This document shows positions 1,430 to 55,448 of a stretch of 64,000 nt of DNA, piece by piece (the stretch's first letter is position 1; each line of letters starts with the position of its first letter). The stretch is from an uncultured Parabacteroides sp. (GTDB lineage: Bacteria; Bacteroidota; Bacteroidia; Bacteroidales; Tannerellaceae): NCBI GenBank assembly GCA_944325345.1, contig CALUZV010000015.1, positions 1-64,000 on the forward strand. The letters run 5' to 3'. A model generated the notes under the pieces. That model saw nothing but the letters and a program-made list of their open reading frames with translations, was not told the DNA's origin and did no database searches. The translations under genes and the position numbers were made by a program.

Positions 1430-2176
1430 TTATAGCTGATTCTGCCGCGACAGCCATTCGTCGGCTTGGCGGAGCGTTTCAGGTTTGCCTACATCAAGCA
1501 ACTCAAGTTTGTCTGCTGGATAAGCCAATATCTTCGTCTTGGCACAGATGGAAAGGTAGAAGTTGATGATGGGGAACTTGCCTGTCCATTCCTCCATCCA
1601 GCGGAAGATTTCCGGCGAGATGACATGGATGCCGCTGAAGGCATACTCGCGATATTGCTCCGGGTCGAAATAAGGATAATAGGATTTCACTTCCCCTGTC
1701 TCGCGGTTTCGCCAACCACAAAGCTGGTTTTCCTTATTAAATAAAAGGTAGCGCGAAGTCTTGCGCCGACTGACAAGCAGGGTCGCCAATGCCTTCGGAC
1801 TACTCTGATGGAGCCGATAAAGCTGGAGCAAATCGACATTGGAAAGGATATCCACGTTGTGCACCAAGAAAGGTTCGTTGCCTTGCAAGAAGAGTTCCGC
1901 TTTCTTTATCCCGCCCCCGGTATCAAGCAGGTAGTCCCGCTCGTCGGAGATATAAATCGTTACACCAAAGTTCTGGTTGGCCTTTAGGAAATCAATTATC
2001 TGCTCGCCCAAGTGATGGATATTGATAACAATCTGGTCGAAGCCAGCCGCTTTCAGTTTCAGAATGACGTGTTCCAGCATGGGCTTCCCTCCTACTGGGA
2101 CTAAGGCTTTGGGCGTTGTGTCGGTGATTGGCCGGAGCCGGTTGCCCATGCCGGCGGCAAATATGAGTGCTTTCAT
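1430..2176 (-). CDS. murU: MurU-like sugar-1-phosphate nucleotidyltransferase
   Basis: A 248-residue nucleotidyltransferase of the GT-A fold. The N-terminal signature GMGNRLRPIT (residues 9-18) followed by PKALVPVGGKPM is the nucleotide-binding loop, and HNVDILSNVDL is the metal-binding region. The product probably transfers UMP to an amino sugar 1-phosphate such as MurNAc-1-P, making UDP-MurNAc without the Fosfomycin-sensitive MurA step. The functional call rests on the gene upstream, an AmgK-like anomeric kinase, because AmgK/MurU pairs form a known cell-wall recycling route. Its ATG overlaps the stop of that gene as ATGA, so the two are likely translationally coupled. A mannose-1-phosphate guanylyltransferase is the main alternative. 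Confidence 0.75.
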   Translation of the reverse strand: MKALIFAAGMGNRLRPITDTTPKALVPVGGKPMLEHVILKLKAAGFDQIVINIHHLGEQIIDFLKANQNFGVTIYISDERDYLLDTGGGIKKAELFLQGNEPFLVHNVDILSNVDLLQLYRLHQSSPKALATLLVSRRKTSRYLLFNKENQLCGWRNRETGEVKSYYPYFDPEQYREYAFSGIHVISPEIFRWMEEWTGKFPIINFYLSICAKTKILAYPADKLELLDVGKPETLRQADEWLSRQNQL

Positions 2177-3603
2177 ATAGTTGGGTTATAGATTTGTTCG
2201 ATGTTTTGCTCGCGATGGACGAGGTGTACCTTCACGCCGTACTTCTGGTTCAGGTGTTCGGCCAAGTGTTGTGCTGAATAGACCGAGCGATGCTGCCCGC
2301 CGGTACAGCCGAAGCAGACCATCAGATTGGTAAAGCCTCGATCGAGGTATCGTTTCACAGAGGCATCCACGATGGTATAGACGTGCTGGAGAAACGTAGT
2401 TATCTCCCCATCGTCTTCCAAGAAACGGATGACCGGTTCGTCCAACCCCGTAAAATGATTATACCGTTCGTACTTGCCGGGATTGTTGATAGCGCGGCAA
2501 TCGAAGACGAAGCCTCCACCATTGCCCGTCGGATCGTCGGGGATACCTTTTTTATAAGCAAAGCTAATGACCTTCACTTCGAGGCGTCGCCGTTGGATAT
2601 CATCGGAGAATTGCGTCAGTTGAGTCAGGTCGCGCAAGACGGAGCAGAGGTAAGGATACTCGGCATAATCCTCGCGCAAGAGCTGACGGAGGTTGTCGAT
2701 GGCATAGGGCACACTCTGTATGAAGTGCGGCTTCTTCTCGAAATAGCCTCGGAAGCCATACGTACCCAGCACCTGCAAGATGCGGAAGAGGACGAAATGC
2801 TGCAACTGACTCCGAAAGTAAGTCTCGTCCACGGGGATATATTGCCTGAGTGCCGCGATATAACTCCCAAGCAATTCTTCCCGCAAATCGTCGGGGTATT
2901 TGGCCTTGGCCTGCCAAAGGAAAGAGGCTACGTCGTAATAGACTGGTCCCTTGCGTCCGCCTTGGAAATCGATAAGCCACGGCTCGCCATCCCGTACCAT
3001 GACATTACGCGACTGGAAATCGCGATACATGAACGTAGCCGACGCACTGCGCAACAAGACATCTGCCATCTTCTGAAAGTCATCCTCCAAACGGTCCTCC
3101 TGAAACTCCAACCCGGTCGCCTTCAAGAAACAATACTTAAAGTAGTTCAAATCCCACAGGATAGAGCGGCGATTGAACTCCGGCTGGGGATAGCAATGGC
3201 TGAAATCCATCCCATCGGCCCCTACGAACTGGACCTTCGGCAACAGCTCGATTGTCTGATGTAGCAGCCTCTTCTCGGTCTCGTCGAAGACACTACTCTT
3301 GCGTCCCTTCTCAATAGCGTCGAACAATAGGGTATCGCCCAAGTCTTCTTGCAGGTAGAACAACTTGTCTTCGCTACTGCAATAGACCTCGGGGACGGGC
3401 AATCCTTTCTGCCGAAAATGCGCTGCCATATAGAGGAATGCCTCGTTCTCCGGCCTCGAAGTCCCACTCACCCCAATAAGGCTTCTGGGTCCCGAGAGGC
3501 GGAAGTAGCGTCGGTTCGAGCCGGACGAAGGTAGCTCTACAATCTCGTCTGCCGGACGGCCTACAAACGTATGATATAAGTCTTTTAGTACCTCTGTAAC
3601 CAT
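2173..3603 (-). CDS. amgK: AmgK-like anomeric sugar kinase fused to a RapZ C-terminal domain
   Basis: A 476-residue two-domain protein. Residues 1 to about 330 form an aminoglycoside-phosphotransferase-like kinase: nucleotide-loop region SSGSNRRYFRL (26-36), catalytic loop YRDFQSRN (193-200, D195 as base) and metal-binding DFQG (D212). This matches AmgK, which phosphorylates MurNAc or GlcNAc at the anomeric position. Residues about 340-476 match the C-terminal domain of RapZ, with the signature GCTGGQHRSVYSA (432-444). In Escherichia coli that domain senses glucosamine-6-phosphate and binds small RNA. The fusion joins amino-sugar phosphorylation to a possible amino-sugar sensor. It is first in an operon with murU (4-base overlap). 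The start is ATG at 3603. Confidence 0.85.
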   Translation of the reverse strand: MVTEVLKDLYHTFVGRPADEIVELPSSGSNRRYFRLSGPRSLIGVSGTSRPENEAFLYMAAHFRQKGLPVPEVYCSSEDKLFYLQEDLGDTLLFDAIEKGRKSSVFDETEKRLLHQTIELLPKVQFVGADGMDFSHCYPQPEFNRRSILWDLNYFKYCFLKATGLEFQEDRLEDDFQKMADVLLRSASATFMYRDFQSRNVMVRDGEPWLIDFQGGRKGPVYYDVASFLWQAKAKYPDDLREELLGSYIAALRQYIPVDETYFRSQLQHFVLFRILQVLGTYGFRGYFEKKPHFIQSVPYAIDNLRQLLREDYAEYPYLCSVLRDLTQLTQFSDDIQRRRLEVKVISFAYKKGIPDDPTGNGGGFVFDCRAINNPGKYERYNHFTGLDEPVIRFLEDDGEITTFLQHVYTIVDASVKRYLDRGFTNLMVCFGCTGGQHRSVYSAQHLAEHLNQKYGVKVHLVHREQNIEQIYNPTI

Positions 3604-50372: not shown

Positions 50373-51146
50373 TTACTCGATATTCTTCCGGATTTTCGTC
50401 AGATAGGCGCGGATGCCCTCCGTGTCGTGCCGGCGGATGACGTCGAGCAGCGTGGCGAGTTCGTCCTGGATGCGCTCAATCTGTTTCGGCGTGCGCGGGT
50501 TGAAGAGGATTTCCGTCAGGAGGTAATCGTCTTCCGAGAGCAGGCCCCGGGCGATTTTCATGTGCCGCTTGAAGGTCGTCCCCGGCGCGTCCTGATGCTT
50601 CATCGTGGCGGCGAAGACCATCGTCGAGGCGAAGGGGATGCCGAGGGAATAGGCCACCACCTTGTCGTGTTCCTCGAACGTGTATTCGCAGATGTGCAAG
50701 CCCAGCTTCCCGTACAAATCCTTGAAAAAGATTTTGCCCAGGTAGTCGCCTTCCGAGATGATGATGGTGTTTTCCTTGTCCAGCTGGCCGAGGTTGGCAA
50801 ACGTCGGACCGAACATCGGGTGCGTCGAGACGTAGCGGAAACCGCTGGCGTCGTAATACTCCTTCAGGTTGGTCTTGACCGAGGCGATGTCGGAAATGAT
50901 GCAAGTCTCAGGCAGATACGGGATGACGGCGTTGAAGGCGTCGAGCGTATGGCTCAGCGTTACGCAGTTGATAACCAGTTCCGGGGCAAAAGCCTTGACC
51001 TCTTCCACGTCCTGCATCCGGACGGCGTTGTAGATGAAACGCATCCGCTTCGGATCTTGTTCGAGCACCGCGACCTCGTGGTCGAAACTCAAGAGGTCGG
51101 TGAAAAACGAGCCCATCTTTCCGGCTCCGAGAATCAATATTTTCAT
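50373..51146 (-). CDS. tyrA: Prephenate dehydrogenase
   Basis: A 257-residue NAD-dependent enzyme making 4-hydroxyphenylpyruvate for tyrosine. The Rossmann motif ILGAGKMGSFF opens the protein, SDIASVKTN and HPMFGPTFANLG are the prephenate-site segments. A frame from 51167 adds seven residues; ATG 51146 fits the family and lies three bases after the upstream stop. Last gene of the pheA operon. Confidence 0.93.
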   Translation of the reverse strand: MKILILGAGKMGSFFTDLLSFDHEVAVLEQDPKRMRFIYNAVRMQDVEEVKAFAPELVINCVTLSHTLDAFNAVIPYLPETCIISDIASVKTNLKEYYDASGFRYVSTHPMFGPTFANLGQLDKENTIIISEGDYLGKIFFKDLYGKLGLHICEYTFEEHDKVVAYSLGIPFASTMVFAATMKHQDAPGTTFKRHMKIARGLLSEDDYLLTEILFNPRTPKQIERIQDELATLLDVIRRHDTEGIRAYLTKIRKNIE

Positions 51147-51148
51147 TT

Positions 51149-52231
51149 TTATTCTTCTTTCTCGCAATCATTCATAATAATCATCTGCTGGCGCACAGAC
51201 TCTTCGTGGATTTCGCGGAGGATGCTTTTGACAAACTCCGGACTCAAATCCATCTGCTTGCCCATGCTCGAGCGGTTCTCCAGAATCTCGTTGTAGCGCG
51301 GAGACTGGAGGATAGGCATGCTGTGCTCCTTCTTGTACGTACCAATCTCGCGGGAGATGCGCATACGTTTAGCCAAGAGCTCGAGCAGCTGCTCGTCGAT
51401 GCCGTCGATCTGCCGGCGCAAGGCCGTAAGGTTCTCCGTCGTCTGGTTCGATTCGCGGATAACCAGCACGTTGAGGACGTAATCCAGCACGTCGGGCGTG
51501 ATTTGCTGTTTGGCATCGCTCAGGGCGTTGTCCGGATTGCAGTGCGATTCAATCATCAAGCCGTCGAAGCTCAAGTCCATCGCCTGCTGGCTGAGCGGAG
51601 CCACCAACTCGCGCGTTCCTCCCATGTGGCTGGGGTCGCAGAAGATAGGCAAGCTCGGCATCCGGCGACGCAACTCGATGGGGATGTGCCAGAGCGGCAA
51701 GTTACGGTAAATCTTCTTGTCATACGAGCTGAAACCGCGATGGATAGCAGCCAAGCGGCGCAGTCCGGCTCCGTAGAGACGTTCGAAGGCGCCAATCCAC
51801 AACTCGAGGTCGGGGTTCACCGGATTCTTCACCAAGACGGGGATATCGACACCCTTCAGCGCATCGGCGATTTCCTGCACGGCAAAGGGATTCACCGTCG
51901 TACGTGCACCAATCCAGAGCATATCCACGCCCGCCTTCAGCGCCTCGAAGACATGGTCTTTCGTCGCTACCTCGGTCATCACATACATGCCGGTCTCTTC
52001 CTTGACCTTCTTCAGCCATGCGAGACCCGGAACGCCGATTCCCTCGAAGCCGCCCGGCTTGGTACGCGGTTTCCAAATTCCCGCACGGAAAATCTTGATT
52101 CCCTTCGAGGCAAGCCCACGGGCGGTTTCCAAAACTTGTTCTTCTGACTCTGCGCTGCACGGGCCGGCAATCACGATAGGACGCTGCGCATCGACGCCCG
52201 GCAACAGGATGGATTCTAATTTCATTTCCAT
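51149..52231 (-). CDS. Bifunctional DAHP synthase / chorismate mutase
   Basis: A 360-residue fusion. Residues 1 to about 260 are a DAHP synthase of the AroG(beta)/AroA-Q type (IAGPCSAESEEQVL, FRAGIWKPRTKPGGFEG, IGARTTVNPFAVQEIA, CDPSHMGGTREL) condensing PEP with erythrose-4-phosphate. Residues about 270-350 are an AroQ chorismate mutase (LTALRRQIDGIDEQLLELLAKRMRISREIG in part; RRQIDGIDEQLLELLAKRM). So the first shikimate step and the branch step to prephenate sit in one chain. Confidence 0.95.
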   Translation of the reverse strand: MEMKLESILLPGVDAQRPIVIAGPCSAESEEQVLETARGLASKGIKIFRAGIWKPRTKPGGFEGIGVPGLAWLKKVKEETGMYVMTEVATKDHVFEALKAGVDMLWIGARTTVNPFAVQEIADALKGVDIPVLVKNPVNPDLELWIGAFERLYGAGLRRLAAIHRGFSSYDKKIYRNLPLWHIPIELRRRMPSLPIFCDPSHMGGTRELVAPLSQQAMDLSFDGLMIESHCNPDNALSDAKQQITPDVLDYVLNVLVIRESNQTTENLTALRRQIDGIDEQLLELLAKRMRISREIGTYKKEHSMPILQSPRYNEILENRSSMGKQMDLSPEFVKSILREIHEESVRQQMIIMNDCEKEE

Positions 52232-52257: not shown

Positions 52258-53454
52258 TTATTCTTGTTTGAGTAATGCCTTTATCCGGCGGAGTGCCTCC
52301 TCCAGCATTTCATTTTTGCAACAGAGCGAGATGCGGATGTACCGTTCGCCCTTGCTGCCAAAGATGAAGCCCGGTGTCAGGAAGACGTTCGCGCCGTAGA
52401 GGATGCGGTCAGCCAGGGCCTCGCTCCCCGCTTCGCTCTCCGGGATTTTACCCCAAAGGAACATCCCGACCTGCTGCTCGTCGTAGGTGCAACCCAAGGT
52501 GTGCATGATTTCTCCGGCGAGGGCGCGGCGGCTGCGATAGACAGCGTTCATCCCGTCGTACCATTCCTTCGGAGCCGAGAGCGCTTCGACGGCAGCGTAT
52601 TGCATCGGCTTGAACTGGCCGGAGTCGATGTTGCTCTTGACCTTCAGCACCCACTGGACGAACTGCGCATTCGAGGCGAGCATGGCCATGCGCCAGCCCG
52701 GCATGTTGTGCGCCTTACTCATGGAGTTCATTTCGATGCAAATCTCCTTTGCGCCCGGGATGCTGAGGATGCTGAGAGGGTGTTCGTTGAGGATGAAGCT
52801 GTAGGGGTTGTCGTTACATATAATAATATTATGGCGACGACCGAAGTCCACTAATTTCTGGTAAAGTTCGACGCTCGCGTTCGCCCCCGTCGGCATGTTG
52901 GGATAATTTGTCCACATGAGCTTGACGCCGGAGAGGTCCATGCTTTCCAACGCCTCGAAATCAGGCTGCCAGCCGAGTTCTTCCTTCAGCTCGTAGGGAA
53001 TCAGGCGCGCGCCGACTAACTTGGAGACAGACGTGTACGTCGGATAGCCCGGATTGGGGAGCAGGACGCCATCGCCCGGATTCAAGAAGGCGAGCGAGAT
53101 ATGTAGGATGCCCTCCTTCGAACCGATAAGCGGCTGTATTTCCGTCTTCGGATCCAGTTCCACGCCGTACCATTTCTTGTACCACGAGGCAAAACCCTGT
53201 CGCAACTCAGGGATGCCCACGTAGGGCTGGTAGCCATGTTCATCGGCACGACGGGCGTGCTGGCAAAGCGTTTCCACGGTCCGCTCCGAGGGCGGGAGGT
53301 CGGGGCTGCCGATACCTAAGTTGATGACGTTCTTGCCGGCGGCATTCATCTCGGCTACTTCTTTCAGCTTCTTGGAGAAGTAGTATTCTTGTACGCTATT
53401 GACGCGTGCAGCGGGTTCGACCTTACACGCTTTGTTTTCCTTCTGCATATTCAC
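52258..53454 (-). CDS. PLP-dependent aromatic/aspartate-type aminotransferase
   Basis: A 398-residue fold-type I aminotransferase. The PLP lysine lies in NSMSKAHNMPGWRMA, with NPGYPTY and NDNPYSFILN for cofactor binding. In this operon it most likely makes phenylalanine and tyrosine from their keto acids, or glutamate-linked precursors. Its first 32 bases overlap the end of pheA; MQKENK (ATG 53448) is an alternative start. Confidence 0.9.
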   Translation of the reverse strand: MNMQKENKACKVEPAARVNSVQEYYFSKKLKEVAEMNAAGKNVINLGIGSPDLPPSERTVETLCQHARRADEHGYQPYVGIPELRQGFASWYKKWYGVELDPKTEIQPLIGSKEGILHISLAFLNPGDGVLLPNPGYPTYTSVSKLVGARLIPYELKEELGWQPDFEALESMDLSGVKLMWTNYPNMPTGANASVELYQKLVDFGRRHNIIICNDNPYSFILNEHPLSILSIPGAKEICIEMNSMSKAHNMPGWRMAMLASNAQFVQWVLKVKSNIDSGQFKPMQYAAVEALSAPKEWYDGMNAVYRSRRALAGEIMHTLGCTYDEQQVGMFLWGKIPESEAGSEALADRILYGANVFLTPGFIFGSKGERYIRISLCCKNEMLEEALRRIKALLKQE

Positions 53455-54268
53455 CTAATATTTTTAAATCTTTTGTCAGCGGATGTATAGCATCAAGCGC
53501 CTGGCGGTAGCGGGTATAGTCGGTAAACGTCAGGTTGATGTAGAAAAGATATTCCCATTCGCGTCCGATAATCGGAAGGGATTGAATCTTGGAAAGGTTC
53601 ATCTCGTAGAACGAGAGGACGGAGAGGACTTTCGAGAGGCTCCCCGGCGAGTGCGGCACGGCGAAGACGAGCGACGACTTGTTCTTGACCGAATCCTTCT
53701 GCACCTCGTCGGCCGTCCACCGGTCGGCGATGGCGAGGAAGCGGGTGAAGTTCCGTTTGTTTGTCTCGATGCCCTCGGCCAGAACCTCCATGCCGTAGAT
53801 TTGGGCAGCGTACTTGCCGCAGATGGCGGCGTGTCCTTGCAGTTGGTTCTCGGCAATCCACTGGGCGCTGCCTGCCGTGTCTTCCTTCTCGACCACTTTG
53901 GCGTAGGGGATGGTGTCGAGGAACTCGGCGCACTGCATCAGGGCAATCGGATGGGAATTAACCTCTTTGACATCTGCCAGCTTCGTCCCCGGCAAGGCTA
54001 CGAGCGAATGCGAGATGCGCAGCTTGTATTCCCCGATGATTTGGAAGCCGCTCTCGCGAATCAGCTCGTGGTTTTGCAGGAGGCTCCCGGCGATGGTGTT
54101 CTCGATTGCCATCAGTCCGAGAATCGAGGGGTCGCGCTTGATGGTGGTGATTACGTCGCGAAACGTATTGCACGGGAGCGTCTCTACCTCGTCGCCTTCG
54201 AAATACTTATGCGCCGCGATGTCGTGATACGAACCGGCTATTCCTTGAATGGCTACTTTCCTTTTCAT
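53423..54268 (-). CDS. pheA: Prephenate dehydratase
   Basis: A 281-residue enzyme turning prephenate to phenylpyruvate. The catalytic domain starts AIQGIAGSYHDIAAHKYF and carries the key motif NFTRFLAI; a C-terminal ACT domain (SPGSLSKVLSVLSFYEMNLSKIQSLP in part; LSKIQSLPIIGREWEYLFYI) binds phenylalanine for feedback control. First structural gene of the Phe/Tyr operon, behind an attenuator. Confidence 0.95.
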   Translation of the reverse strand: MKRKVAIQGIAGSYHDIAAHKYFEGDEVETLPCNTFRDVITTIKRDPSILGLMAIENTIAGSLLQNHELIRESGFQIIGEYKLRISHSLVALPGTKLADVKEVNSHPIALMQCAEFLDTIPYAKVVEKEDTAGSAQWIAENQLQGHAAICGKYAAQIYGMEVLAEGIETNKRNFTRFLAIADRWTADEVQKDSVKNKSSLVFAVPHSPGSLSKVLSVLSFYEMNLSKIQSLPIIGREWEYLFYINLTFTDYTRYRQALDAIHPLTKDLKILGEYAEGKQSV

Positions 54269-54292: not shown

Positions 54293-54324
54293 AAAAAAAG
54301 TCCCACCGTCGTACGGCAGGACTT
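54293..54324 (-). terminator. Attenuator terminator of the pheA operon
   Basis: On the minus strand AAGTCCTGCCGT pairs with ACGGTGGGACTT and runs into TTTTTTTATATG, an intrinsic terminator 25 bases before the pheA ATG. Its 5' arm contains TCCTGCC (54321-54315), which is the exact complement of GGCAGGA (54386-54380) at the end of the leader peptide gene, giving a competing antiterminator pairing. Confidence 0.85.
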
Positions 54325-54367
54325 CATATTTTAATTATTGATACATTGCTTCTGAATCATCAACGCT

Positions 54368-54445
54368 TTACATACAAACTCCTGCCTTCACCTTGCTAAA
54401 AAAGTAAAAGTAATAAAAGTAATATGTAAAGCTAAATCGAGTCAT
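54368..54445 (-). CDS. Phe/Tyr leader peptide of the pheA operon
   Basis: A 25-codon frame, ATG 54445 to TAA 54368, with six Phe and five Tyr, nine of them in a row as YYFYYFYFF (residues 8-16). It starts 28 bases after the pheA promoter -7 box. Stalling of the ribosome on the Phe/Tyr codons would leave GGCAGGA (54386-54380) free to pair with the terminator stem and so let transcription go on. The peptide itself probably has no other job. The mixed Phe/Tyr content suits an operon that makes both amino acids. Confidence 0.88.
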   Translation of the reverse strand: MTRFSFTYYFYYFYFFSKVKAGVCM

Positions 54446-54472
54446 CTTGTCTTTTTGTTTTTATTGACGCGG

Positions 54473-54503
54473 CAAAAGTAACTATTTTCTTTAATACGCC
54501 AAA
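54473..54503 (-). promoter_or_regulatory. Promoter of the pheA operon
   Basis: TTTG (54503-54500), 19-base spacer, TACTTTTG (54480-54473), a full-consensus promoter placed 20 bases downstream of the oxyR stop. Confidence 0.82.
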
Positions 54504-54521: not shown

Positions 54522-55448
54522 TCAAACAGATTTCTGTCCCGCCCGCAACGCCAGCATTTCCGGCGGGACGGAGCCTCGGATTTGTTCAATCAAAACGGCT
54601 GCCACATGATAGCGGACGAAATCCTTCCGGCGCACGAAGACAATCTCCCGCGTCGGGCGCGGTATAGCAAAGGGGCGCACCAGCTCGCGCTGCTTCGGGC
54701 CGAGTTGCGCGACGGCCAGTTCGGGAATGAAGGTCATCCCGTTGCCGCTCTCCACCATGCGCATGAACGTCTCGAGGCTCCCCAAGCGGTAGGCCGCCTG
54801 GTGTATCTTTACCTTCTCGCGCTGGCAGAATCGCACCAGCTGGTCGCGAAAGCAATGCCCCTCGTCGAGCAACCAGAGGCGTTCGTCGTTGATGTCGGCC
54901 GTGCGCAGGAGCGTATTTTGGAAGACGGGTTCGCTCGGCGAGACGTAGCCGAAGAACTCTTCATAATATAAGGTATCGCCCACAAGGGACGCCTCCTCCG
55001 GCTGGTTGGCGATGATGGCGGCGTCGATTTCGCCTTTCTGCAGGGCCTGCAGCGTCGGCGCTGTCTGCATCTCCAGGATTCGCAGGTCCATCTCGGGGTA
55101 TTTCTCCTGGAGCGGTTGCAGGAAGCGGGGTAAAAGGTACGGGGCGATGGTCGGGAGGACAGCCATGCGGAAGATACCGCTCAGGCGGTTCTCCTCCTCG
55201 CGCACGATTCCTTTGATCTGCCCGATTTCGTAGAGGACTTTCCGTGCCTGCTCGACGACTTTCCGTCCGGCCTCGGTCGGCATCACCGGCTGCGTGGAGC
55301 GGTCGAAAAGCTTCACTTCGAGTTCTTCCTCAAGTTTTTGGATCATCATGCTGAGCGTAGGCTGCGTTACCCGGCAGTGCTCGGCGGCGCGGGCGAAATG
55401 GCGGTAGCGGTCCACGGCCAAGATGTATTCTAATTGCTGTATATTCAT
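54522..55448 (-). CDS. oxyR: OxyR hydrogen peroxide regulator
   Basis: A 308-residue LysR-family activator. The N-terminal helix-turn-helix is HFARAAEHCRVTQPTLSMMIQKLEEEL in part (RAAEHCRVTQPTLSMM). The sensing cysteines Cys199 and Cys208 are in DEGHCFRDQLVRFC, at exactly the positions used by Escherichia coli OxyR. It turns on peroxide defence genes when those cysteines form a disulfide. Own promoter; no clear terminator before the pheA promoter. Confidence 0.95.
   Translation of the reverse strand: MNIQQLEYILAVDRYRHFARAAEHCRVTQPTLSMMIQKLEEELEVKLFDRSTQPVMPTEAGRKVVEQARKVLYEIGQIKGIVREEENRLSGIFRMAVLPTIAPYLLPRFLQPLQEKYPEMDLRILEMQTAPTLQALQKGEIDAAIIANQPEEASLVGDTLYYEEFFGYVSPSEPVFQNTLLRTADINDERLWLLDEGHCFRDQLVRFCQREKVKIHQAAYRLGSLETFMRMVESGNGMTFIPELAVAQLGPKQRELVRPFAIPRPTREIVFVRRKDFVRYHVAAVLIEQIRGSVPPEMLALRAGQKSV

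Follow-up and report, generated by a model that had tools for sequence, protein, structure and literature searches.

A probable phenylalanine/tyrosine transcription attenuator preceding the pheA-tyrA operon of a Parabacteroides species and its counterparts in the Bacteroidia

How might a gut bacterium match expression of its phenylalanine and tyrosine synthesis genes to the supply of both amino acids? The window analyzed here, a stretch of 64,000 nucleotides from a contig of an uncultured Parabacteroides sp. (CALUZV010000015.1, positions 1 to 64,000), raises this question because four minus-strand genes for aromatic amino-acid synthesis, tightly spaced or overlapping, follow a short open reading frame rich in Phe and Tyr codons (Table 1). 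We found little description of the regulation of such genes in gut Bacteroidales. The original prediction held that the DNA preceding pheA forms a ribosome-stalling attenuator, and it is supported by conserved Phe/Tyr runs, compensatory changes in the antiterminator, a conserved terminator and promoter, and a spacing that fits the reach of a ribosome. The sequence-level hallmarks of this mechanism are all present, namely an ORF rich in end-product codons, a terminator, a mutually exclusive antiterminator and a suitable stall geometry. We assign a probability of about 0.93 to the reading that pheA, the aminotransferase gene, aroF/CM and tyrA are under a classic ribosome-mediated transcription attenuator, which very probably turns on Phe and Tyr synthesis genes when these amino acids run short. 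We favor attenuation because the Phe/Tyr run is unique, the fold contains both the 1:2 and the 3:4 pairings, the elements are conserved, the pairings covary, and both the spacing and the modeled stalling fit, and also because leader content follows operon content and leaders for Trp, His and Ile/Leu/Val occur elsewhere in this genome.

Direct reading of the minus strand towards pheA reveals, in order, a promoter, the leader ORF, the segment GGCAGGA, its complement TCCTGCC, a 13-pair terminator and a tract of seven T residues. The 25-codon leader, its YYFYYFYFF run, the two complementary segments and the terminator all lie where they had been placed by the original prediction. An additional third element, absent from that prediction, is the 1:2 hairpin. 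The whole leader peptide contains six Phe and five Tyr residues, and its run of aromatic codons is not due to chance: a search for runs of seven yielded three overlapping matches, all at one place in the window, and none in each of 100 shuffles, while a run of eight occurs at a single place in the entire 3.27-Mb genome (reversed-pattern control, 0). The 182-nucleotide leader folds with a z-score of -3.9, and none of 200 shuffles folded as well. When complete, it folds as 1:2 plus 3:4; when the RNA extends only up to region 3, the 2:3 pairing competes with 1:2.

Table 1. Positions in the window of the proposed attenuator and the genes that follow it
Feature	Coordinates	Strand	Basis or remark
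-33 promoter element TTTG	54500..54503	-	Direct reading; consensus as in PMC7366714
-7 promoter element TACTTTTG (TAnnTTTG; form TAcTTTTG)	54473..54480	-	19 nt from -33 TTTG
Leader peptide gene MTRFSFTYYFYYFYFFSKVKAGVCM, 25 codons	54368..54445 (ATG 54445, stop 54368)	-	Reading frame intact in every Parabacteroides leader read
Nine consecutive Phe/Tyr codons (YYFYYFYFF), proposed stall site and part of region 1	54398..54424	-	Direct reading
1:2 hairpin, 27 pairs: Phe/Tyr codons (region 1) with GGCAGGA side (region 2)	54365..54432	-	Minimum-energy fold
Region 2 core GGCAGGA, antiterminator 5' strand	54380..54386	-	Within leader codons 20-22
Region 3 core TCCTGCC, common to antiterminator and terminator	54315..54321	-	Complement of GGCAGGA
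Intrinsic terminator stem-loop (3:4), 13 pairs, loop of 3, then T7 ending at 54293	54297..54325	-	Terminator scan
pheA, prephenate dehydratase	53423..54268	-	PF00800, E=5.6e-53
Class I/II aminotransferase	52258..53454	-	PF00155, E=2.8e-58
aroF/CM, DAHP synthase fused to chorismate mutase	51149..52231	-	PF00793 and PF01817
tyrA, prephenate dehydrogenase	50373..51167	-	PF02153, E=6.1e-10; listed start mechanical, later ATG likelier

The consensus promoter that had also been proposed is present at its predicted place, yet its class requires refinement, as its sequence points to the Bacteroidota sigma-ABfr type and not to sigma-70. The TAnnTTTG/TTTG combination constitutes the primary promoter of Bacteroidota (PMC7366714). 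Among 97 distinct leaders, 86 carry TAnnTTTG no more than 70 nucleotides upstream, mostly 25 to 40 nucleotides ahead of the leader start, compared with 5 of 188 background stretches. A sigma-70 scan yielded only poor matches located inside the leader, and this promoter class was rejected. Transcription would start near position 54466, and all four genes would depend on this single leader promoter. From the leader to the end of tyrA, the minus strand holds only two terminator-like matches, the attenuator and a five-pair hairpin within the aminotransferase gene; over the region such matches number 8, which is close to the 6.2 obtained with shuffled sequence. Just upstream of the leader, on the same strand, lies an oxyR-like LysR-type gene (55448-54522) that ends without a T-tailed terminator, and any transcription reading in from this gene would still meet the attenuator. 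At the 3' end of the gene we noticed by eye an inverted repeat, GTCCCGCC...GGCGGGAC (54522-54575), that lacks a T tract.

These elements suggest the following mechanism. The leader would be translated by a ribosome trailing RNA polymerase, and a scarcity of charged tRNA-Phe or tRNA-Tyr would cause this ribosome to stall within the nine-codon run, where it would mask region 1 while leaving region 2 free approximately 11 nucleotides ahead. Region 2 could then pair with region 3, the terminator would be blocked, and the operon would be transcribed. With both tRNAs charged, the ribosome would advance and mask region 2, permitting region 3 to pair with region 4 and transcription to end at the T tract. 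Lack of either amino acid alone may be enough to relieve termination.

The geometry of the leaders is consistent with this scheme. From the last Phe/Tyr codon to the start of region 2 the distance is 7 to 19 nucleotides (median 11, SD 1.9), whereas from the same codon to the stop codon it ranges from 3 to 42 nucleotides (SD 9.1), and several lineages have a peptide that stops short of region 2. Such a pattern is what would be expected if the front edge of a stalled ribosome, and not the end of the peptide, sets the distance. We also modeled stalling by folding the RNA downstream of a ribosome, with its edge assumed to lie 13 nucleotides beyond the first base of the codon in the A site. With the window's leader, a stall at any Phe/Tyr codon of the run allows about 10 pairs of 2:3 to form; past the run this number declines to 7.9 at codon 17, 4.9 at codon 18, 0.1 at codon 20 and none at the stop codon, such that the modeled switch falls at codons 17-20. 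The same behavior is obtained at 96 of 96 loci, with a mean of 9.5 pairs for a stall in the run versus 0.06 for a ribosome at the stop codon.

To see how widely this arrangement occurs, we sampled pheA loci from Parabacteroides, from other Bacteroidales, from the phylum and from families across the class, supplemented by longer stretches, and scanned the 500 nucleotides upstream of pheA for leaders. Loss of the leader or terminator in close relatives, which would have spoken against the original prediction, was not seen in Parabacteroides: the mixed leader and its terminator precede pheA at every locus of the genus with readable upstream DNA, and matches to an eight-codon Phe/Tyr pattern recur immediately ahead of pheA from one genome to the next. 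Intact leaders were read directly from the DNA at six loci (L016, L011, L056, L067, L074 and L087), and the leader at L175 reads YFWFY. As a check, the original prediction had named a comparison of other Bacteroidales for kept Phe/Tyr codons and compensating stem changes, and both were found: 96 of the 97 distinct leaders are mixed, with at least two Phe and at least two Tyr codons. Trp occurs in 8 of the 97, mostly adjoining or within the Phe/Tyr run. Two loci (L154 in G059 and L180 in G131) carry two Phe/Tyr leader-plus-terminator units in series no more than 400 nucleotides upstream of pheA.

By our reading of a class-wide sample of Bacteroidia, 26 genomes with pheA include about 17 with a Phe/Tyr leader, one doubtful case and eight with none. 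Judging from these sequences, the same switch appears to be kept, fitted to each operon, in most of the pheA-bearing Bacteroidia tested. No leader was present upstream of pheA at L161, L167, L170, L179 and L141-L149, all from Bacteroidia genomes; at leaderless loci pheA often comes directly after another gene (e.g. L146 and L147). A Tannerellaceae MAG locus (L093), whose PheA is 62% identical, likewise has pheA with no leader, and repeated segments resembling ATGAATATGGGTGTGAGGA occur there upstream of pheA and at its start. In the last 100 nucleotides before the pheA of a pheA-tyrA pair (L177, G374) there is a TACATTTG promoter element with a terminator-like hairpin directly after it and no leader ORF; this site is perhaps a decayed attenuator. 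A phylum sample of the 30 top-scoring loci (L111-L140), which is uneven because it was chosen by PheA score, contains 29 from outside the class, none of which has a leader. None of these 29 has aminotransferase, aroF or tyrA neighbors in tblastn searches with the window's proteins.

The pairings themselves were evaluated on a MAFFT alignment of 69 non-redundant sequences that was made without reference to structure. The 2:3 antiterminator core (GGCAGGA/TCCTGCC) is paired in 93.2% of the alignment cells, versus 32-49% for slid controls and at most 88% for permuted partners. The terminator reaches 97.5% paired cells and the 1:2 hairpin 82% across the 69 sequences, versus 48-57% for the hairpin when slid. 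Changes on both sides are found in four of the seven core 2:3 pairs (in 17, 5, 23 and 4 sequences) and in seven of the eleven 3:4 pairs, although these counts come from related sequences and hence do not represent independent events. Across loci the antiterminator takes the forms GGCAGGA:TCCTGCC, GAGCGGGA:TCCCGCTC, GACAGGAT:ATCCTGTC, GAGGTGGG:CCCACCTC and GACCGGGA:TCCCGGTC. In a separate test on 98 loci, 98% had an antiterminator duplex that outdid at least 95% of shuffled linkers; these duplexes were picked as the best available, and of the two measures the alignment-based one carries less bias.

According to the original prediction, a leader of mixed composition fits an operon that has pheA together with tyrA, and the genome G053 agrees: its pheA stands alone, with the next gene convergent, behind a leader of seven Phe and no Tyr (MTRFFTHFFFFFTQQ), and the tyrA-aroF-CM operon, which lies on another contig, is preceded by a mixed leader (MNNTFGYYAFYYYFFYNN) and a terminator of its own. 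The Phe-only case comes from the single genome of its genus in the sample. In three species of one genus from another family (G071, G154 and G269), which we guess to be Chryseobacterium-like, TYYY leaders with terminators precede tyrA and pheA has no leader; within that family the YYY leader is confined to the one genus. We lean slightly towards the view that, in Bacteroidia, selection tunes aromatic leader codons to the genes controlled: Phe-only before pheA alone, a Tyr triplet before tyrA alone, mixed codons with aroF/CM/tyrA, and Trp beside or in the Phe/Tyr run in some lineages with a DAHP synthase gene in the operon, with two lineages using two attenuators in series. The cases are few, and the match could partly be coincidence. 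Such a natural series of operon splits offers a test bed for matching leader codons to operon products.

Other explanations for these observations deserve consideration. The switch could be real yet sense essentially Phe, with the Tyr codons neutral or kept for RNA pairing. For the FYF leader of Corynebacterium glutamicum, AroR, a response has been reported to Phe but none to Tyr (PMC11802643). Within Parabacteroides and the lineages closest to it, the last Tyr codon is invariably TAC and the flanking Phe codons are invariably TTT, and these bases pair in 1:2. We nevertheless consider Phe-only sensing unlikely. Tyr content appears to follow gene content because no Tyr codon occurs in the one leader that precedes pheA alone and the tyrA-alone operons have Tyr triplets, and in our model stalling at every codon of the run frees region 2. 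The five Tyr residues beside six Phe in the peptide likewise speak against Phe being the sole amino acid sensed.

Less probable still is a role for the short ORF as the gene of a functional small peptide, or for the terminated leader chiefly as a trans-acting small RNA, with attenuation secondary. Termination would indeed produce a discrete transcript of about 170 nucleotides that might be listed as an sRNA in small-RNA surveys, and trans-acting leader products such as peTrpL are known (PMC7298713). What is conserved, however, appears to be the RNA logic and not the peptide, because Phe and Tyr interchange freely, C-termini vary and stop codons move without loss of region 2 or its pairing. We give almost no credence to the idea that the hairpin is the ordinary terminator of the oxyR-like gene and the Phe/Tyr ORF a chance occurrence. 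It is true that this LysR-type gene closely precedes the leader in the same orientation and lacks a T-tailed terminator where it ends, but a promoter and a coding frame intervene, and covariation with region 2 together with presence in distant lineages refutes this reading. Attenuation by a stalled ribosome is the explanation we prefer. At the level of sequence, the locus argues strongly that aromatic amino-acid synthesis in gut Bacteroidales is under a class-wide, annotation-free regulator.

The same genome carries leaders for other amino acids. Seven His codons occur in the leader MSVVFHHHHHHHSGQ upstream of hisG (L235, ~987-1034, G000:C31), and MMYNNVLHINLVGVQLIISR, which contains Ile, Leu and Val codons, lies upstream of ilvD (L236, ~924-986, G000:C11); each is accompanied by a terminator-like hairpin. 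A Trp leader, MRTFIVNTNWWWRLGQPKWS, is located upstream of trp genes (L234, G000:C12; ORF ~1480-1543, minus strand, reverse-complemented locus coordinates), and it is matched by the Bacteroid-trp RNA model (RF01692), whose match lies beside the trp genes at 2903-3042 on the minus strand (70.3 bits versus a threshold of 49).

Identity as a riboswitch, T-box or sRNA was rejected, as nothing before pheA reached an Rfam threshold and the matches in the window comprised four tRNAs only. The sub-threshold matches look like chance, except for a weak, full-length match to the E. coli Phe leader (RF01859 Phe_leader). That model aligns along its full length to the window's leader (18.1 bits) and to a relative, L176 (30.2 bits), but the gathering threshold is 55, and by this threshold the window's leader is not a member of the family. 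We found no description of the pheA-tyrA attenuator in the literature searched, but it may have been predicted earlier; two works that may bear on it are Lopatovskaya et al. 2010 (Mol Biol 44:128) and Gurvich et al. 2011 (NAR 39:3079).

Enteric pheL is commonly described as Phe-only. The E. coli pheL-pheA system resembles the present one in having a leader with a run of Phe codons and competing antiterminator and terminator structures directly before pheA, but it controls pheA alone and differs in promoter class and operon. Leader-peptide attenuation is already known in the phylum, from Bacteroid-trp and Flavobacterium psychrophilum. Bacteroid-trp is a leader-peptide RNA as well, but it concerns Trp, another operon and a different sequence. 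In F. psychrophilum, leader-peptide attenuators have been noted upstream of amino-acid operons (PMC9723704); phylum and proposed mechanism are shared, and the main text of that source gives these attenuators one sentence, with no Phe/Tyr leader. ORFs in 5' UTRs of B. thetaiotaomicron have also been called reminiscent of leader peptides.

Mixed Phe/Tyr leaders are likewise known in principle, as evident from the FYF of AroR. In C. glutamicum, this Phe-Tyr-Phe leader precedes an operon with a DAHP synthase gene (aroR-aroF) and acts by stalling-dependent attenuation (PMC11802643). It has three aromatic codons versus the nine observed here, belongs to the Actinomycetota and, as far as described, serves a different operon. 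Use of one leader with codons for several end products of an operon is familiar from enteric thrL and ilvL, which have Thr/Ile and Ile/Leu/Val codons, respectively, instead of the Phe/Tyr codons of the window's leader.
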